Shown: in pieces, positions 10,762 through 19,900 of the stretch
Layout of the letters: every line of letters begins with the position of its first letter
Position numbering within the stretch: the first letter of the stretch is position 1
IMG/VR virus record: IMGVR_UViG_3300047095_000369
Span: 1-21,826 of that record
Source: a virus
DNA length: 21,826 bases
Reading direction: 5' to 3' (one strand)
Program-made: the position numbers and the translations under genes
The notes under the pieces: generated by a model
Database searches by the model: none
Seen by the model: the letters and a program-made list of their open reading frames with translations, nothing else
Told to the model about the DNA's origin: nothing

Positions 10762-11139
10762 TTACTTCTTAAAGTTAGCTACAATTCGCTGTCCAAATAG
10801 GAAGCCAAAGGCAATATTAGCTGCTTCTAGTGCGGTAAGCTTGACAGTAACATCCAGATCAGGAACAAGGGCTGTCCCAAGACCACCCAGAATAACAACA
10901 CCAGCAGAAATATATCGAGCACTGCCGCGAAGATCGATAACCCATTGCGATGGTGTGCCCCCCGGATTATCCAATGACGCAAGGACCTGCATCCGTTTAA
11001 TATCTTGTTCATCAAGTCTAATTTGCTCCTCAATTGTAGTCGGCTTAACACCGCCTGCTTTATTGACAATCAGTTGTTTAATTCCCTCTACACCTACGGG
11101 TAGTAGTGCAGAGAGTAGTGTAGTAAGTAATAGACTCAT
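10762..11139 (-). CDS. Putative holin, GTA-type 3TM family
   Basis: The ATG at 11139 is chosen because it overlaps the upstream HNH stop (ATGA) and GAGG lies about eight bases upstream. The product is 125 residues. A hydrophobic N-terminal helix (SLLLTTLLSALLPVGVEG) precedes a cytoplasmic linker, then comes a clear membrane segment (ARYISAGVVILGGLGTALV) and a third, weaker one near the C-terminus ending in basic residues. The layout resembles the 3-TM holin family described in gene transfer agents and marine phages. It would make pores releasing the M15 endolysin. It lies in the replication arm, away from the endolysin. Another membrane role cannot be excluded. Confidence 0.5.
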   Translation of the reverse strand: MSLLLTTLLSALLPVGVEGIKQLIVNKAGGVKPTTIEEQIRLDEQDIKRMQVLASLDNPGGTPSQWVIDLRGSARYISAGVVILGGLGTALVPDLDVTVKLTALEAANIAFGFLFGQRIVANFKK

Positions 11140-11468
11140 TTGGTTGGCCTCATAGTTTTCCAAGATTCATGTGATCGCATATGATCTCCTCTAGTAGTTA
11201 ATTCTAAATTAGATACATCATTATTAGATTTATTATGATCTTTATGATGAATAATCTCTTTTCGTGTTAGGGGTCGTCCTAAATAAACTGCCATAATATA
11301 TCTATGTTCTAATACCCAACCAGACTTATCACACATACAGTGAAACTGTGGTTCAATTAAATTGATGTTTAGTTTATAATAACCTTTACCATCAATTGAT
11401 CTACCACCTTTCCATTGGCTATGAGCTTCTCCATGACGTGCCCATTTTTTATTACTCCATACTTTCAT
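11136..11468 (-). CDS. Free-standing HNH homing endonuclease
   Basis: The ATG at 11468 has GAGGG seven bases upstream; an in-frame TTG at 11474 overlapping the ThyX stop is the alternative. The product is 110 residues. The core motif runs from WVLEHRYIMAVYLGRPL through EIIHHKDHNKSNN to NLEL, the histidine and asparagine pattern of HNH_3 endonucleases, preceded by a GxGYYKLN strand. Such enzymes cut intron-less or intron-containing target alleles and spread their own gene. It is wedged between thyX and the holin candidate with overlaps on both sides, and its DNA looks more AT-rich than thyX. Probably a selfish insertion rather than a replication gene. Confidence 0.8.
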   Translation of the reverse strand: MKVWSNKKWARHGEAHSQWKGGRSIDGKGYYKLNINLIEPQFHCMCDKSGWVLEHRYIMAVYLGRPLTRKEIIHHKDHNKSNNDVSNLELTTRGDHMRSHESWKTMRPTK

Positions 11469-11470
11469 AA

Positions 11471-12064
11471 TCAACCCTCAGGTATCCAAGTAAAAATGTG
11501 ATTATCAGTCTCTTTTGCTAATATATTATTTATTAGCACTGCAACCTTTCTCACCTCCCATTGGGCATGTGTATCTGCTCTAAGTCTAATGAAATCCAAC
11601 CATGCTTGGAAGTTTCCTGTAACGATAAACTCAGTTGTTGTAGCTTCTGGTAGTACAAACCTAGCATCCTCTTTTTTAACTCCTAGTTCAAGTAATTGTT
11701 TATACCAAGAAGCACAATCTTTATAACATTCCTCATAGTACCCTAAAAGAACTTTATCTGTTGTTGGAGGATAAACAAAGTCTGCTTTATCCTCCTTACA
11801 ATATCTTTGACTTCTTTGTAAGAAATCTAGATGCTTGCTACGAACAAACTGATGAGAACAAACACGGCTAATATTACTAACATGGAAAGTTGCATGAGCA
11901 AACCGTAAAGTAGCCAGATGACCTTTGTCTTTACAAGCGACCGCCCGTTTAATATTTGATGCGTTAGATGTATCAGAGTTGTAACAAATACCAGCACAAT
12001 TACCGATAAAGTTAACAGCATCAGGCGTGATCTGTAATAATTCTACTTTCAACTGTATCACCAT
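11471..12064 (-). CDS. thyX: Flavin-dependent thymidylate synthase
   Basis: A ThyX-type enzyme (197 residues from the ATG at 12064; GTGs at 12067 and 12061 are alternatives) converting dUMP to dTMP with FAD, NADPH and methylene-tetrahydrofolate. The signature region is R75-Y88 (RSKHLDFLQRSQRY), a divergent form of RHRxxSxNExSxRY: the first Arg and the SxRY end are kept, but the usual His is Ser and the central Ser and Asn-Glu differ. The C-terminal DTHAQWEVRKVA segment is characteristic of the family. The start lies inside the MazG-like gene by about 44 bases. Together with class II reductase it supplies DNA precursors independently of the host. Confidence 0.9.
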   Translation of the reverse strand: MVIQLKVELLQITPDAVNFIGNCAGICYNSDTSNASNIKRAVACKDKGHLATLRFAHATFHVSNISRVCSHQFVRSKHLDFLQRSQRYCKEDKADFVYPPTTDKVLLGYYEECYKDCASWYKQLLELGVKKEDARFVLPEATTTEFIVTGNFQAWLDFIRLRADTHAQWEVRKVAVLINNILAKETDNHIFTWIPEG

Positions 12065-12570: not shown

Positions 12571-13362
12571 CTATCCCAAATTTCCATTTCGTAGCCGTCG
12601 TTGATGTCTAGCAAGAAGGTACGAGAGGGTAATGCTATGGCAGTGAAAGGCACCGTCGTTAACATCGTGGAGGAAATGGATTCCTCTGAAGTAATTGTTA
12701 CCTTGTGGTCCGAGGTAGTCTTCGTCATGTTCATAACAACATCCTGCAAATAATCCGGTAATGAGTTTACCATCTGCACGGTATTCATTATAGATCTCCA
12801 TCTTTTGATTGTGTCCTTGAACACAAGACATATGCTTCTTTAGCACAAGGTTACGAGCTGATAGTGCTGGTCTACCTAAGACACCAGTTGTAAAGTAGTG
12901 GCTATAAGCAACACCATCTACTAGAACAATGTCTAGGAATGGATGTACTTCCCAACCATAATCTTTATAACCAAGATCCTCGATAGAAATAGTGCCATCT
13001 AGTTTAGGATCATTCTCAGTAGCACGATTGATGCGCTCTTCGTGATTACCTAAGGTTAAGATCATGCGTGGATTATAACGCTTCTTTTTATTTGCTCCAG
13101 CTCTCTCATTGTATTCCCAAATAGGGCTGAGAAGGGCCTGCATTGCTTCATGGGACGCATTAATATCATCACGGTATCTCCTACCCTCAAACGACTTCTT
13201 ACCTACGTCATATGAGGATAGAGACGGCATGTCTGCAAAGTCACCAATACAAACAATAACGTCAGGTTTTTTTTGAACTAGGTAGTGACCAATAACATTT
13301 AAGTATTCGGTACTATGTCCGGGTTTTACTTGTACGTCTGGAATAACTGCATGTGTAGTCAT
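12571..13362 (-). CDS. Calcineurin-like metallophosphoesterase
   Basis: A 263-residue metallophosphatase. The metal-site motifs appear in order: PDVQVKPG (D9, with Gln in place of the usual His at 11), GDFADM (D41), GNHEER (N106, H107), H155 in SHYFTTG, and GHNQ (H184). The DxQ variant and the MPSLSSYD segment are typical of phage enzymes found beside Pol I-type polymerase genes. Substrate is unknown; phosphomonoester or diester removal from nucleotides or DNA ends is plausible. The start overlaps the upstream HNH stop (ATGA). Confidence 0.85.
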   Translation of the reverse strand: MTTHAVIPDVQVKPGHSTEYLNVIGHYLVQKKPDVIVCIGDFADMPSLSSYDVGKKSFEGRRYRDDINASHEAMQALLSPIWEYNERAGANKKKRYNPRMILTLGNHEERINRATENDPKLDGTISIEDLGYKDYGWEVHPFLDIVLVDGVAYSHYFTTGVLGRPALSARNLVLKKHMSCVQGHNQKMEIYNEYRADGKLITGLFAGCCYEHDEDYLGPQGNNYFRGIHFLHDVNDGAFHCHSITLSYLLARHQRRLRNGNLG

Positions 13363-13724
13363 TTTTTAGAGTATCTCTCTTCTTTACTTTTCTGTTTGTG
13401 ACAATCAATACATAAGACTTGGAGATTATCTTTCCCACAATAGAGTCTATTGATGTATTCATCCCAAGTAGTAAACCCTGTTTTGGGATCTACTACTGGG
13501 TTGATATGATCAACTTGAACTTCCTTTGCAGGATACTCTTGTTTACAAGCAGCACATAGATAGTGCTTACCTTCTCTACCAGTCTTTTGATTTATCCTTT
13601 TACCTACGAATGCATCAGCTAATGTTTCATATTTCGGTGGAAACTTACGAGCACCTGCCCGTAAAACAGCCACAATAAAAGCTCTAAAACGTCCTTCAGT
13701 CCAAAGAGGGTGCGGTGAGTTCAT
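13359..13724 (-). CDS. Zinc-binding HNH nuclease
   Basis: A 121-residue protein with an HNH fold: CAAC zinc pair, VQVDHINPVV (catalytic His region), NLQVLCIDCHKQK (second zinc pair and His). This version, without an AP2 or LAGLIDADG DNA-recognition domain, recurs in podoviral replication clusters next to exonuclease and polymerase genes. It may be a resident recombination or packaging nuclease rather than a homing enzyme; that is inference. The ATG follows GAGAT. Its first 29 bases overlap the tail of the AP2-HNH gene, and its stop overlaps the metallophosphatase start. Confidence 0.8.
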   Translation of the reverse strand: MNSPHPLWTEGRFRAFIVAVLRAGARKFPPKYETLADAFVGKRINQKTGREGKHYLCAACKQEYPAKEVQVDHINPVVDPKTGFTTWDEYINRLYCGKDNLQVLCIDCHKQKSKEERYSKK

Positions 13725-14184
13725 GTATGATCTCTAGTTTCTTTTTAAGATATACATTATGAGCCTCATCAGCAGTTAAATAACTACCTAGATGCAATAA
13801 TGTATTACCAATACGAAGTCTAGCGACATACTTGTTTCCGCTTCTCGATACTCCAAGTGTGTTAGTGCTATTTGATTTATGTGCTTGCTTTTTATTATAC
13901 ATATTAACTTCTTGAACTACATCTCTCAAGTTATTAATAGCATTGTTTAATTTATTACCATCAATATGATCTACCTGATGATTAGGCCATGTCTTATAGA
14001 TATAAAACCAAGCTAATCGGTGAGACTTATATCGTACCTTATTAAGACTAATCCTACGATAACCTTTATTATCAGTAGAACCTGCAATTTTTTGAGAAGC
14101 TCTCCAAATAAATGTACCAGTCTCTGGAAAATAAATTAATTTATCAACAAGTTCCTCGTGAGTTATTTCTTTATTGGTTTTCAT
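13696..14184 (-). CDS. HNH homing endonuclease with AP2-type DNA-binding domain
   Basis: A 162-residue protein. Residues 1-60 carry the GTFIWRAS strand and the SHRLAWFYIY segment. The HNH_3 core is HQVDHIDGNKLNN followed by INNLR. The C-terminal AP2-like domain has GVSRSGNKYVARLRIG and LGSYLTADEAHNVY. This is the standard free-standing homing endonuclease arrangement in phages. It lies between a small overprinted gene and a second HNH gene, overlapping the former by ATGA and the latter by 29 bases. No ribosome binding site is visible, so translation probably depends on coupling. The DNA is visibly AT-richer than the exonuclease and metallophosphatase genes, consistent with later arrival. Confidence 0.88.
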   Translation of the reverse strand: MKTNKEITHEELVDKLIYFPETGTFIWRASQKIAGSTDNKGYRRISLNKVRYKSHRLAWFYIYKTWPNHQVDHIDGNKLNNAINNLRDVVQEVNMYNKKQAHKSNSTNTLGVSRSGNKYVARLRIGNTLLHLGSYLTADEAHNVYLKKKLEIIHELTAPSLD

Positions 14185-14414
14185 GCTGCATCATCAGTAG
14201 TTCTTTCGGGGACATTAACTAGGTCAAGTCCACTACTTGCGGTTGTATACATTCCGTTGGCTCCCCACTGACAAGGATACCAGATGTCATCAAAGGGGTC
14301 ATAGTAGGCTCCATTGATGTACCTACCGTTGAAAATGTCATAGAACCTAACATTGTTTCCACCTCTTGTTGCAATTGGCTTGGTAAAATCAAGTCTGTCT
14401 TTCGGTGCAGCCAT
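14181..14414 (-). CDS. Small conserved phage protein overprinted on exonuclease tail, 77 aa
   Basis: The ATG at 14414 is chosen over one at 14447 because a strong AGGAAGGAG lies just upstream. The product has the pattern LDFTKPIATRGGNNVRFYD, then INGAYYD, WYPCQWGANGMY and SGLDLVNVPE, which recalls a widespread short phage protein ('TKPVQTRDGR...' type) of unknown function. The first 196 bases also encode the last 65 residues of the exonuclease in another frame. The strong ribosome binding site and recognisable pattern indicate that this frame is truly expressed. Confidence 0.72.
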   Translation of the reverse strand: MAAPKDRLDFTKPIATRGGNNVRFYDIFNGRYINGAYYDPFDDIWYPCQWGANGMYTTASSGLDLVNVPERTTDDAA

Positions 14415-15061
14415 GTCTCTCCTTCCTGTTGCATAATCCATAAACATTGAGCATTCATTAAAAACCTGCCAGCATCTTCAAGATATAGATGATAGACAAT
14501 ATCTAGCATCTCTTGTTCATCTGTAAGATGGTCAATATATTTGCTAGCTTTTACAGGACCAAGTCCCATAACACCAAAGATATTATCTGACTTATCTCCA
14601 ATGAGCATTTGTTTATAGAAATGCTTAATTCCTTCTAGTTCTGATACGTAAGAGTATTCATTATGTAACCAATTAAAATGGTTACCGGGAATCATCTTTA
14701 AATCTTTATCCAAACTAGCAATACGAGTATCTTCTGTTTGAGCAATTCCTAATAGATCATCAGCTTCACAACCATCAGATATAATAGCGTTCCAATCAGA
14801 GACAAGAAAACCCCGGCAGGCTTGGAGCCAGCGGGGTGGTTCTTTATCCTTGCGGTTAGCCTTATACTCAGTATTAACTTTCTTACGGAAGTTGTTGGCT
14901 CCAGTAAGGAAAGCAATATAACTTTCTGAATCAGTGTTAACTAATAGATCTCGCATTAGTTTATCTGCACGGAGAAGAGCAACTTCCTCTTCCCCGTGTG
15001 GCTCAACAGATGCGGCACATCTAAAGGCTACTAAATCCGCATCAATGAGAAGTGTTTTCAT
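14219..15061 (-). CDS. 5'-3' exonuclease / flap nuclease (FEN-PIN family)
   Basis: A 280-residue protein with the acidic residues of the FEN/5'-exonuclease family: DAD at 7-9, EADD at 99-102, SLDKD at 116-120, GDKSDN at 155-160, then the helix-hairpin-helix GLGPVKAS at 167-173. It would remove RNA primers and flaps, taking the place of the N-terminal domain missing from the phage's Pol I-type polymerase, or degrade host DNA. The conserved part ends near EGETW (213-217). The last 63 residues are Met/Thr/Ser-rich, look unconserved, and overprint the next gene. The start overlaps the upstream stop (ATGA). Confidence 0.88.
   Translation of the reverse strand: MKTLLIDADLVAFRCAASVEPHGEEEVALLRADKLMRDLLVNTDSESYIAFLTGANNFRKKVNTEYKANRKDKEPPRWLQACRGFLVSDWNAIISDGCEADDLLGIAQTEDTRIASLDKDLKMIPGNHFNWLHNEYSYVSELEGIKHFYKQMLIGDKSDNIFGVMGLGPVKASKYIDHLTDEQEMLDIVYHLYLEDAGRFLMNAQCLWIMQQEGETWLHRKTDLILPSQLQQEVETMLGSMTFSTVGTSMEPTMTPLMTSGILVSGEPTECIQPQVVDLT
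14419..14427 (-). promoter_or_regulatory. Strong ribosome binding site inside exonuclease gene
   Basis: The - strand reads AGGAAGGAG followed by AGAC and ATG at 14414. It is among the best Shine-Dalgarno sequences in the arm, and it is inside the coding frame of the upstream exonuclease. It decides the start of the 77-residue protein. Confidence 0.7.
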
Positions 15062-15303
15062 TTGTTGTCAGCGATAAACTTCTTAGCTGCATCAAGAGTA
15101 TCTACTTCATCAGAGATAGAATCAGTGTTTCCATCCACAAACTTAGTAATACTAACTCGGTACTTCCCATCCTCCTGTTTTTGGATAGTACTCTTGGTGA
15201 AAATCTCACCTTTCGTTCTGGTGACAGGAAGGGCATAAACCAGAGGTTTAATTCCGAATGCATCTCTTAGTACCTGTTGGAATGGATCAATAAGGGATGT
15301 CAT
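15058..15303 (-). CDS. Hypothetical phage protein, 81 aa
   Basis: The ATG at 15303 is favoured by GGAG about eight bases upstream; an in-frame ATG at 15318 lies further inside the SSB-like gene. The product starts MTSLIDPFQQVLRDAFG, has a central beta-like part (KGEIFTKSTIQKQEDGKYRVSIT) with many Lys/Thr, and a helical end. No family is recognised. It sits between the SSB-like and exonuclease genes with overlaps on both sides, so a replication accessory role is suggested only by position. Confidence 0.6.
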   Translation of the reverse strand: MTSLIDPFQQVLRDAFGIKPLVYALPVTRTKGEIFTKSTIQKQEDGKYRVSITKFVDGNTDSISDEVDTLDAAKKFIADNK

Positions 15304-15799
15304 CTTGCATCTCCGCAATGTCTAGGGTTTGTGGTGTAGCTGTATCAAATACATAAGCTTCAAATTGTTTAGCTACTGCTAGTACTTCATTGACTTCAGG
15401 AGTCTTCTTATCAGTCTTTAGCAGATCAACTGCTGCTGAGATCGAACTCTGACGTACAATGTACACTTGCTTCTTAGCACGTTCTTCTGCAGTCTCATAG
15501 GTACTCTTCGGTGAAGCAGATGGAGTATAGCTTGCAGCAGCAGGAGCACCACCAGCACTGGCATTTAGCCAATCCCAATAACCTGACGTTTCATTCTTCT
15601 CTGAGGTAATGGTTAAAACATCACCAGTCTTAGCATTCTTCAGCGTTTCAAAGGCTGGTTTGCTATTACCGAATGACATAATCTTCTTACCTTCAGTCTT
15701 ACCATCACGCTTATATGCCACATCTAGTTGGGTATAAGAACCTTTAGCTGTTGGCTTAGTAGTACTTGTTACTGCTAGAACTTCAATAGTAAATTGCAT
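15287..15799 (-). CDS. Single-stranded DNA-binding-like protein
   Basis: A 170-residue protein. Residues 1-75 have beta-rich, OB-fold-like character (FTIEVLAVTSTTKP, SYTQLDVAYKR, KKIMSFG). A flexible Ala/Ser/Pro linker lies near 85-100, then a helix with KKQVYIVRQSSISAAVDLL, and an acidic C-terminal tail ending DDIPY, comparable to the DDIPF tip that recruits partners in bacterial SSB. It would coat single-stranded DNA at the fork. AAGGAG lies five bases before the ATG, one of the strongest sites in the arm, fitting a highly expressed SSB. It directly follows the polymerase genes. Confidence 0.75.
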   Translation of the reverse strand: MQFTIEVLAVTSTTKPTAKGSYTQLDVAYKRDGKTEGKKIMSFGNSKPAFETLKNAKTGDVLTITSEKNETSGYWDWLNASAGGAPAAASYTPSASPKSTYETAEERAKKQVYIVRQSSISAAVDLLKTDKKTPEVNEVLAVAKQFEAYVFDTATPQTLDIAEMQDDIPY

Positions 15800-15830: not shown

Positions 15831-16571
15831 TCAAGTAGCCACGACAATTTCTTTACCTTCGTTTTGATTGGGACCTGCTTTAACTTCACAGATCAAAGGT
15901 ATATTCCAATCTATATTGTAACACTTACTTATGTTAGAAGCAAGATCTTCAAACGTTTTATTGAAAATATTTGTTGCTGCTTCTACTTCATGGTCAGGTA
16001 CATCGGCAACAATAGAATCATGCACAGTAGAAATAAGCAAGCCAGAAAGACCGGCAGTTTTCCATTTGTTATAACAGGACACACGTGCCACTGCCATAAC
16101 GTCAGCACCCACTCCTTGATTGATGTGATTACAGATGTCAGATTCATTCCATTTATATCCTCCAAACCTATTCTTCTTTGGTGTGTGTAGGTGTACTCTC
16201 CCAAAAGGACTAACTGTTTTACCAGTGGTAGTTGCTTCGTTGATTAGTTTTATGTGCGTTTTATTCAACCCTTGATATTTATCAAAGAATCGATCAATAA
16301 CATTTTGCCAGAATTTATCTGACTTGGACACAGATTTAAATAGAGGATCATTTGCATAGGCAAAGGCTGGTCCCCTATAGATACAACGAAACAGAAAGAT
16401 TTTACTTACTAAACGAGAGCTTAATTGCAGATCATTCTGATTGTTTGTATGAATGTCGTTTAATTTAGGATCTTTTAGGAAGTTAAACCATTCCTCTATA
16501 CCAGTTTTATCTTGACTCAAGTATAAATATGTGAGCCACTCCAAGCTTTTTGCATCACATTGAACAATCAT
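15831..16571 (-). CDS. DNA polymerase I family, C-terminal polymerase part (split gene)
   Basis: A 246-residue ORF holding the catalytic palm and fingers. Motif A is at the very start (IVQCDAKSLEW, catalytic D6, E11). Motif B is R53-K57-F61-Y65, where Phe at 61 matches E. coli F762. Motif C is STVHDSIVAD (H184, D185). The ATG overlaps the stop of the N-terminal ORF as ATGA; no Shine-Dalgarno is visible, so expression would need stop-restart coupling or a -1 shift. Its length from motif A to the end equals that of normal family A enzymes. Alone it lacks exonuclease and thumb, so it must assemble with the other half. A one-base sequencing or mutational deletion is the competing explanation. Confidence 0.88.
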   Translation of the reverse strand: MIVQCDAKSLEWLTYLYLSQDKTGIEEWFNFLKDPKLNDIHTNNQNDLQLSSRLVSKIFLFRCIYRGPAFAYANDPLFKSVSKSDKFWQNVIDRFFDKYQGLNKTHIKLINEATTTGKTVSPFGRVHLHTPKKNRFGGYKWNESDICNHINQGVGADVMAVARVSCYNKWKTAGLSGLLISTVHDSIVADVPDHEVEAATNIFNKTFEDLASNISKCYNIDWNIPLICEVKAGPNQNEGKEIVVAT

Positions 16572-17716
16572 GTGAATCTACTTGTACAGAATTGTTTGCA
16601 GGCAGGCGGCATATTTTGCTGGTTAGGTCTAGTTGCCGAGAGTCTGCCAGTAGTTGTAACACATTGATTGAGTTGTCCATGCACAAGAGCATTGGACCAA
16701 TGATGTTCGTCGATAAGTTTTGGTATTCCTTCGTAATACGTTCCCCGAAGTTTTTCGATGCCTCTTCGCTCGAGTATTTTATCGATGAGTCTTTTACCAT
16801 CTCCAGTAGCCTTGAGATTTCGTAACGTATCTTCGTCAGATCTGAAGTATCCATCTGTCGCTAACTCACTTCCTTTTAGAGGTTCAATTAACCTAGGCAA
16901 TACATATTGTTTGGTTATGATTTTGTATCTGGGTTGTCCTGTCTTAGCCCCTGTTTTATAAACTCCAATAGGGAGTCTATCTTCGATTTCAATTGTTCCG
17001 CCATAAAGCAAGCTAGATAGATGAAAATTAGAATTAAGATTGAGGGGAATGTCAGGAGCGTAACTACTGATAAGATGATCCAGTTCATTCGACGCCTGTT
17101 CAAGAAGTTTTGCTTCATTTAATGATCCTGTAATATCGTATTTAAATCCATTGTATTCCATCTCTTGCAATACTAATAGATCTTGGCATTGCATACGGAA
17201 CAATTTATATTTATCTCTGTGTTCGGACGATTGGAATTCCTTTAACTGAACTAAATATAATTGATAGGTTAGATTTAAATCCTGTTTCAAATAAGAAGTA
17301 AGGATGTCTGTTGGGATTTGATCTGTATCAATACCCTTCTTCCAATATTCTTCCTTAATTACATCAATCTTTCTACCTAATCCTCGTTTCTCACAAGCTT
17401 CATCTAGACTTGGGTATCTCCATTGCTGATTACTTAAGATAAATTCAGCTAATTGACAGTCCCAAATTTGGAACTCATCCCCAAGAGTAACATCCAAATT
17501 CCTAAGCCAGTGTAGATCAAACTTAGCGTTGAATAGGAGGAGTCTTGTTCCAAGCTGGTGCTGTGAGTCCATGAAAGCAGAGCTAAAACCATGAATGTTG
17601 TGGATAGAATAACTAATACCATCATACCAACCCCCCAATACAAATTTATTTCTTGTGTCGAATGGATCTCCATTGTTGGAGATAGTTACTTCTGTATCAA
17701 GAGCTAGTACTTTCAT
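16568..17716 (-). CDS. DNA polymerase I family, 3'-5' exonuclease and thumb part (split gene)
   Basis: A 382-residue ORF. The proofreading exonuclease is intact: ExoI D7-T-E9, ExoII NAKFD (D67), ExoIII Y142...D146. Then come a helical thumb-like region and the family A motif TGRLSATRPNQQNMP (356-370). It stops at TGA after SRFT, a few residues before motif A would begin; motif A onward is in the overlapping next ORF. There is no N-terminal 5'-nuclease domain, that activity being encoded separately at 14219-15061. AGAGGAA lies four bases before the ATG. It is the replicative polymerase of the phage; its pattern (DTEVTISNNGDPFD) is typical of podoviral/siphoviral Pol I. Confidence 0.88.
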   Translation of the reverse strand: MKVLALDTEVTISNNGDPFDTRNKFVLGGWYDGISYSIHNIHGFSSAFMDSQHQLGTRLLLFNAKFDLHWLRNLDVTLGDEFQIWDCQLAEFILSNQQWRYPSLDEACEKRGLGRKIDVIKEEYWKKGIDTDQIPTDILTSYLKQDLNLTYQLYLVQLKEFQSSEHRDKYKLFRMQCQDLLVLQEMEYNGFKYDITGSLNEAKLLEQASNELDHLISSYAPDIPLNLNSNFHLSSLLYGGTIEIEDRLPIGVYKTGAKTGQPRYKIITKQYVLPRLIEPLKGSELATDGYFRSDEDTLRNLKATGDGKRLIDKILERRGIEKLRGTYYEGIPKLIDEHHWSNALVHGQLNQCVTTTGRLSATRPNQQNMPPACKQFCTSRFT

Positions 17717-18459: not shown

Positions 18460-18668
18460 TATTTTTCTCTCAATGCATTAGTGGTTGTTTCAGACTCGCC
18501 TAACATGCAGATGGTCATAAATCTTTTACGATCAAAGAATTGATTGTCTTGGATGAATCCTTCTGCAATTTCTGCAGCAATCTTTTCTCGATAACCGGGA
18601 GGAAGATCAGCATTTCTAATAGCTTTGGCTACAATTTCATAGTGTTTCCGAGAGAAGCCATACTTCAT
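18459..18668 (-). CDS. Conserved-looking small phage protein, 69 aa
   Basis: A 69-residue protein with the pattern FSRKHYEIVAKAIRNA, then AAEIAEGFIQDN and FDRKRFMTICMLGE. This arrangement recurs in many phage and prophage small proteins (recalled as the 'F..dN..Fd..rF' type). No biochemical function is known to me. Its ATG overlaps the helicase stop by one base (TAATG), so it is translationally coupled to the helicase. Confidence 0.65.
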   Translation of the reverse strand: MKYGFSRKHYEIVAKAIRNADLPPGYREKIAAEIAEGFIQDNQFFDRKRFMTICMLGESETTTNALREK

Positions 18669-19900
18669 TAGCTGTAGTCCCTGTATCTGGCAATTTGTGG
18701 TTCAATAAGAACGTCTTGTTTTCCGTGACGTAGTTCTGGATCTGTGTCATCATCTCCACTGAGTTTATTCTTTGAGAGATGTAAGTGTCGTACATATTCA
18801 AAACCGTCCGCATGGGTAGCTCCAATGCCGAGAATCCAGTCGGCCTCGGCTTGTTTAGCTGTTTTTGCATTCGCCACATTATCCATATTAAGCCACTTTT
18901 TTCCTTCAGCAGTTCCGTCTGCCTGCGTAACCCCGATAACAGGACAATATGTTTTTGCAATCTCTCTAGCCCAGATGTAGATGGCTCCAAGTCTAAGATC
19001 TTCGCGATCACCGTCAAATCCTCGGATTTTATCGATTTGATCGAAGATGACAAGACTAGGTTTAAGAGTTTTACATAGTTTCTCAATTTCACTTTTGGTG
19101 ATAGTTGCTCGATCATAGAGCTTAATCTTACCGTTTGTCTTTGAGTTATATCTGTCTTGATTAGCATGGCGATTACTGATTAGCTCTTGTAAGTGAATAC
19201 CTAGGCTGGCTTGGAAGATTCTAAGTTTAACCTTTTTACCACCTTCTTCATTGTTGATCCAAAGGATGGGACCATCTTCTTCTTTGAGTTGCTCTGCGAA
19301 GTAAGTGATTTCTGATGCGAGGAAGGTTGTTTTGCCAGTCTCGGGCCGTGCAAATATAAAACCGAAATCCCCTTTGCGGAGAGATCCAAGCATTCGGTTG
19401 AGTGTTTGTAGACGCCAACGTAAACCATGTTGTTTGATTTGTTCATTATACAATTCCTCTAGATCATCTGTGATGAATTCAAATTCTTCTATGACCGACC
19501 CATGCTCCTCTTCGTTTTGTACAATCTTGTTGCGAAGAAGATCAAAATCTTTCCTACCTTCATTAACATCAATGGCTAGTAGTGCAATCTCATGAGCGAG
19601 AGTTTTCTTTTTATAATCTAGTAATAGATCTTTAGCTAGATCTTCTTGGATATCCGTAGCTTTGATTGTGTCAAAGATGTTAGATAGTTCATTAACGTCT
19701 TGATGCTTACTGAGACAATACATTGTTAGTTCGTCTAATGTAATATCTCTGTTGTACTTCAACATCAATTCATCTAACCCAAGATAAACTTGTTTTAGTT
19801 GTGGTGCAAGTTTATTTAAATCAATATAGGTTCTATATTGATTATATAGTTCTAAGCTAAGTAGATGTTTTACTAGACCTAATAGGGGATTTACTGGCAA
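18668..19900 (-). CDS. Replicative DNA helicase, DnaB/T7 gp4-type
   Basis: A 410-residue RecA-fold helicase starting at TTG; the start is set by GGAGGAA five bases upstream. Residues 1-130 are a helical N-terminal region like the DnaB primase-interacting part. The Walker A motif is RPETGKTT (185-192). A glutamate cluster follows (NNEEGG, 216-221). Walker B is LVIFDQID (283-290). The C-terminal SKNKLSGDDD segment is typical of phage DnaB-like enzymes. It would form a hexameric ring unwinding the fork. In T7 the primase and helicase are one polypeptide; here they are two genes overlapping by 44 bases. Confidence 0.9.
   Translation of the reverse strand: MPVNPLLGLVKHLLSLELYNQYRTYIDLNKLAPQLKQVYLGLDELMLKYNRDITLDELTMYCLSKHQDVNELSNIFDTIKATDIQEDLAKDLLLDYKKKTLAHEIALLAIDVNEGRKDFDLLRNKIVQNEEEHGSVIEEFEFITDDLEELYNEQIKQHGLRWRLQTLNRMLGSLRKGDFGFIFARPETGKTTFLASEITYFAEQLKEEDGPILWINNEEGGKKVKLRIFQASLGIHLQELISNRHANQDRYNSKTNGKIKLYDRATITKSEIEKLCKTLKPSLVIFDQIDKIRGFDGDREDLRLGAIYIWAREIAKTYCPVIGVTQADGTAEGKKWLNMDNVANAKTAKQAEADWILGIGATHADGFEYVRHLHLSKNKLSGDDDTDPELRHGKQDVLIEPQIARYRDYS

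Follow-up and report, generated by a model that had tools for sequence, protein, structure and literature searches.

Is the family A DNA polymerase of this virus made as two proteins, or do its two open reading frames (ORFs) represent one protein that has been interrupted by an error, an intron, or a recoding site? The window analysed here is the whole stretch of 21,826 nucleotides of the IMG/VR record IMGVR_UViG_3300047095_000369. A first-pass annotation of its letters had described a polymerase ORF pair split at catalytic motif A with an ATGA overlap, and had offered a stop-restart polymerase of two subunits, a -1 frameshift, and a single-base deletion as explanations.

Two polymerase ORFs meeting at motif A

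The polymerase genes and their neighbours in the window are as follows.

16568..17716, minus strand: half 1, 3'-5' exonuclease, thumb, and N-terminal palm segment (TGRLS...SRFT), 382 aa
15831..16571, minus strand: half 2, palm motif A, fingers (O-helix SRLVSKIFLFRCIY), and motif C (HDS), 246 aa
16568..16571, minus strand: ATGA stop/start overlap of both ORFs, proposed termination-reinitiation site
16552..16571, minus strand: half-2 start and motif A Asp codon, intact in the window
18668..19900, minus strand: DnaB-like replicative helicase of the same replication module (Pfam DnaB_C)
15287..15799, minus strand: gene following half 2, positioned like gp16 of MEP401, function unassigned
14219..15061, minus strand: 5'-3' exonuclease of the replication module (Pfam 5_3_exonuc_N)

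Half 1 ended with TGRLSATRPNQQNMPPACKQFCTSRFT followed by the TGA stop, and half 2 began with MIVQCDAKSLEW, in which MIVQCDA is the start of motif A. The overlap comprised 4 nt on the coding strand in the context AGATTCACATGATTGTTCAATGTGATGC. Both ORFs matched Pfam DNA_pol_A (PF00476) above the gathering score, ORF 1 at profile positions 55-133 and ORF 2 at positions 197-379; these matches, together with the catalytic residue set described below, identify a family A polymerase. In a comparison with PDB sequences, half 2 was aligned with residues 377-602 of the Klenow-fragment chain, indicating that the cut lies in the loop directly before the motif A strand. Direct reading of the junction revealed neither an AGGAGG-like Shine-Dalgarno sequence nor a slippery heptamer. 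The ORF coordinates, the Pfam matches, and this reading all agree with the first description of the junction. Motif A was in frame in the window, with no translationally bypassed interruption of the T4 gene 39/60 type.

The helicase-polymerase gene order of the window was also found in MEP401 and QDWS535. Three HNH endonuclease ORFs were present elsewhere in the window (11136-11474, 13359-13724, and 13696-14184, minus strand), clustered in the replication/metabolism module beside the thyX, metallophosphoesterase, and exonuclease genes.

Conservation and predicted folds of the two halves

In an alignment of 40 relatives, D7, E9, Y142, and D146 of half 1 and D6, E11, R53, K57, F61, H184, and D185 of half 2 were invariant, and all of them were present in the window. 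When the window was compared with two relatives (L011 and L013), pS was 0.75-0.87 and pN was 0.27-0.32 for both halves. These values indicate saturated synonymous sites and constrained protein change, which points to purifying selection on both halves. The invariant residues and the pS/pN values are in accordance with the initial view that the catalytic residues are intact and that the pair is not a decayed pseudogene.

Each half was also modelled alone with AlphaFold. The mean pLDDT was 93 for half 2 and 89 for half 1, in which residues 354-361 scored under 50. Foldseek matched half 2 to the palm-fingers of Pol theta and Bacillus Pol I, and half 1 to the family A polymerases phiVC8 DpoZ, Pol I, and T7. 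The low-scoring residues belong to the palm tail, for which packing against half 2 is expected; this would fit an obligate partner.

The same cut in about 230 relatives

Each half was used as a tblastn query against 50,697 phage records, and five records with the two halves apart were obtained; scans of IMG/VR contributed several hundred further loci. A single-protein search of viral contigs with half 2 gave zero matches, and alignments were used instead. The halves overlap by 1 nt (TAATG) in QDWS535 and are separated by a 77-aa gene in MEP401 and MEP402, by a 68-aa gene in ctOsX528, and by 3.6 kb with seven genes in ct2os315. Among 192 loci with both halves, a fused gene was found only in the distant outgroups HTVC033P and Vibrio 1.015.O. 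Forty-five further distinct loci were split in 43 cases and fused in two, the fused pair matching the half-2 queries at only 35%. No fused member of the clade was thus found in either set. The identical cut was shared by about 230 distinct relatives, comprising phage isolates and IMG/VR contigs, which is far beyond chance, and the question of whether relatives carry one ORF or the same split is answered in favour of the split.

The spacing between the halves in the clade ranged from -17 nt to +3598 nt, with unrelated genes intervening. Whatever intervened, half 1 almost always ended with SRY or SRF plus 0-15 residues. Half 2 started with M-[ILV]-x-x-x-D-A, 4-5 residues before the motif A Asp, and its own start codon was at the same residue in every subgroup. 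The ORFs overlapped or abutted (within about 10 nt of the start codon) in 50 of the 192 loci, and the half-1 stop lay within ATGA in 24 of them. With a conserved cut and both parts under selection, the gene pair is a naturally split polymerase. The split had been called unusual beforehand; this holds for family A in general, but in the present Zobellviridae-related clade the split is the rule.

Two side observations were made on these loci. Small acidic proteins recurred between the polymerase genes of different subgroups (L004:5166-5399 and the gaps of L113, L230, L290, and L300), and are perhaps an accessory subunit. Half 1 of L083 contained an in-frame stop near residue 347, the sole half-1 disruption in the first locus set.

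These data bear directly on whether one base was lost from an ordinary continuous gene by a sequencing or assembly error. The -1 relation of the ORFs and the expected spacing of the palm residues would suit such a loss; however, about 230 loci from many metagenomes and isolates carry the same cut with varied overlaps or inserted genes, and none in the clade is fused. Because the cut is shared clade-wide with very different spacings and both halves are under purifying selection, the single-base deletion was rejected, and we regard an error as very improbable.

It could also be supposed that the halves are exons spliced in RNA, as was suspected for MEP401/402 and as the joined annotation of Vibrio phage ICP2 implies. 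Group I introns do occur elsewhere in the same polymerase gene, in the O-helix codons (L106) and at the PNLQN site (L300, L290, and L303). Against this, the ORFs overlap or abut in the window and in about 50 relatives, leaving no room for an intron; the inserts in other relatives are unrelated genes, as many as seven; and in all subgroups half 2 has a start codon of its own, always at one and the same residue. At the Rfam gathering threshold no intron was detected at the junctions of the window or of L002-L006, and the coding parts of the window have a 4-nt overlap between them in place of a ribozyme core; the group I introns elsewhere in the gene appeared at lower thresholds. Since the ORFs overlap, splicing is practically ruled out here, and its probability is very small.

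Programmed -1 frameshifting at ACATGA might yield a full-length polymerase besides the two halves. Its product, SRFTMIVQCD, would keep the natural spacing, and short recoding sites seem to be present in relatives. The junction, however, lacks a slippery heptamer, and the arrangement is not conserved, since relatives show other overlaps and long gaps. Such a frameshift, which had been one of the initial options, is unnecessary and is inapplicable where the halves of relatives are 0.1-3.6 kb apart; we consider it improbable in the window. Rejoining of the halves by a split intein was also considered, as intein-joined split polymerases such as the MIJ3 PolB are known (PMC6892783). Half 1, however, stops 0-15 aa past SRY/SRF and half 2 starts 4-5 residues ahead of the motif A Asp. 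The ORF ends are polymerase residues and the N- and C-intein segments are absent; accordingly, protein trans-splicing is refuted by the sequence and has a negligible probability.

Taken together, these findings suggest that the window very probably encodes a family A polymerase of two permanently separate subunits, made here by restart. The conserved cut, the residues, the selection, and the varied spacing support this option, which had been among those first proposed. From the strict conservation of both halves, their complementary predicted folds, and the low-confidence tail of half 1, we infer that half 1, with the exonuclease, the thumb, and the first palm strands, would assemble non-covalently with half 2, which contributes motif A, the fingers, and motif C. 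One active site would be formed by both halves, and the cut would lie in a surface loop that connects two palm strands. Given the ATGA overlap and the absent Shine-Dalgarno sequence, restart by terminating ribosomes is most likely the simplest route to half 2, judging from the sequence. In such a process, ribosomes ending half 1 at TGA would restart on the overlapping ATG without a Shine-Dalgarno sequence, and the yields of the two subunits would be coupled.

Comparison with known split genes

A literature search on split family A polymerases returned no results, and a paper on virioplankton polA did not mention splits. The split had been noted in OM43 phages in 2023 and left open as a possible intron (PMC10580990), and a tool paper describes separate genes for the two domains in some Zobellviridae (PMC10143988). 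The Methylophilales (OM43) phages MEP401 and MEP402 and their group I relatives (PMC10580990) have the same polymerase family and cut position as the window. MEP401/MEP402 also have the same neighbours (primase, helicase, and exonuclease), and their halves are 41-42% identical to those of the window; they differ in the intervening gene, where an intron was suspected, whereas the window has the ATGA overlap and no insert.

In the Vibrio phages ICP2 and VP41s3 (Zobellviridae), a family A polymerase is likewise carried by two ORFs near motif A, with an HNH-like ORF between them in ICP2 and a small gene in VP41s3. Their cut, however, is about 13 residues earlier (PNLQN / IKSRF) than that of the window, and the identity is about 30%; the split is probably an independent event. 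The intervening ORF of ICP2 had HNH-type motifs by inspection and no Pfam match at E 0.01. ICP2 (L007:5956-8524) is annotated with a two-piece joined CDS around this ORF; an intron was not detected there, and a separate start seems to be present for the C-terminal ORF. The ICP2 polymerase is possibly also two proteins.

The nearest parallel for the origin of the split is T4, in which mobA, an HNH gene, divided the topoisomerase gene into 39 and 60; a bypassed insert of 50 nt in gene 60 may protect against the endonuclease (PMC3014915, PMC5009743). The T4 arrangement resembles the present clade in that a fragmented replication gene still works, that an HNH gene is located at the junction in many relatives, and that in some relatives the frame is interrupted near the start of the second piece. 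It differs in the enzyme and in the length of the interruption (50 nt versus about 1-10 nt in the clade relatives), and the window itself, unlike T4 39/60, has neither an endonuclease at the junction nor an interruption. Fission associated with homing endonucleases likewise produced separate subunits from nrdA of Aeromonas phage Aeh1, split by mobE, and the split gene 43 of the family B polymerase in phages 25 and 44RR (PMC2988022); these cases concern a ribonucleotide reductase or a family B polymerase and other cut sites.

Frame breaks within motif A in relatives

Among about 250 distinct half-2 starts, 28 had a frame interruption inside the motif A codons, directly following the catalytic Asp. 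The broken loci were as follows.

Candidate short bypass or frameshift sites: L012, L014, L020, L032, L035, L045, L051, L094, L097, L106, L124, L142, L170, L235, L277, L278, L284, L285, L289, L299, L300, L318, L329, L358, L364, L405
Without a good hairpin: L002 (+1), L240 (-1)

In the 26 loci other than L002 and L240, the interruptions broke the frame or contained a stop; they were about +1 to +10 nt, with two of -1, and in most of these loci a hairpin ended at the break. This hairpin took in the start codon together with the codons that immediately precede the break, and its sequence varied while the pairing was kept, as in the stems TTTGGGAC/GTCCCAAA, ACTTAATG/CATTAAGT, and GCCTTG/CAAGGC. 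The stem score was 18.0 in 24 broken starts versus 11.7 in 182 intact starts (Mann-Whitney p=2.5e-10). A good hairpin was lacking in L002, L142, and L240, and the hairpin of L124 had a different register; these four loci may represent a separate class or be errors. A scan with a degenerate hairpin pattern returned the known case only. Of the first 24 broken loci, more than half had a stop codon at the break or immediately next to it, for example L170 (GCT CTT TAG CTT GAG TGG), L106 (GCG CTA TAG CTA GAA TGG), and L285 (TAT CTT TGA C, the shift site of E. coli prfB). The codon before the break could often re-pair with the triplet ahead of the resuming codon. Matched-codon stop-hops have been described in synthetic constructs, and a natural in-frame stop-hop was said to be unknown (review PMC5009743).

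Sequencing error was examined as the cause of these breaks and rejected, because disruptions were otherwise rare, with only one in about 219 kb of polymerase coding sequence of the first set (O-helix introns aside), and because the same break was common to pairs of diverged contigs. The dN/dS was 0.04 for L051-L097, which share the same break, and 0.11 for L124-L142. Close intact relatives of broken loci were found at 96.5% (L014-L011), 94% (L094-L013), and 99% (L051/L097-L044), and about 21 changes between the broken and intact states were counted on the tree. The records of the frame-broken genomes contained no second intact copy of half 2 that could rescue them. On the basis of these sequence features, the breaks look like very short ribosomal-hop or frameshift sites.

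Homing endonucleases at the cut site

Of 24 broken loci, 12 had an HNH gene or its remnant in the gap between the polymerase genes; of 169 intact loci, 7 did (Fisher p=2e-8, odds ratio 23). This association is biased upward because the HNH search seeds came partly from broken loci and the counts were completed by eye. The HNH matches of L300, L290, and L303, located in a half-1 group I intron, were left out of this association. The first 10 residues of the HNH ORFs of L094 and L032 are the old half-2 start (MAIVNADAKS and MPIINVDAKS, respectively); each ORF is followed by a second copy of the half-2 start, the break, and the remaining half 2. These residues appear to record an insertion at DAKS^LEW directly. 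Among relatives, the cut site forms a hot spot of HNH genes.

As to the origin of the ancestral split, we lean towards invasion of polA near motif A by an HNH homing endonuclease. The invading gene would give the C-terminal part a new start, as with MobA in T4 gene 39/60, and the endonuclease would later have been lost in the lineage of the window, leaving back-to-back ORFs. The frame breaks with HNH genes in relatives support this origin; the support is indirect, since an HNH gene between the halves is absent in the window and in most intact loci. It also seems rather likely that HNH genes repeatedly invade the motif A codons and that the polymerase gene survives via short programmed hops or frameshifts (about +1 to +10 nt) after the hairpin. 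These events would occur immediately past a hairpin closing over the catalytic Asp codon.

HNH ORFs were also observed at two other positions of the polymerase gene. The O-helix codons (VFR^LIYGG) were interrupted by insertions with HNH ORFs at L106:4065-4650, L035:6285-7000, and L098:4926-5602; that of L106 was a group I intron by Rfam (26 bits, below the gathering score), and those of L035 and L098 were alike by eye. In half 1, the SRP^NLQN codons contained group I introns with HNH ORFs (L300:2804-3508, L290:3247-3440, and L303:3434-3601), the same region as that of the splits in the ICP2 and VP41s3 polymerases.

Implications

The overlapping ORFs settle, within this lineage, the issue left open in the literature of an intron as the reason for the split. 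A replicative family A polymerase very probably can persist as two proteins cut beside the catalytic aspartate, and the pair would offer a ready-made split polymerase for engineering. In about 28 relatives with frame breaks, endonuclease-driven gene fission and short ribosomal bypassing can be studied in natural cases. If the proposed hops are true, the T4 gene 60 bypass would have ultrashort natural counterparts in these relatives, as a family that would have arisen many times.
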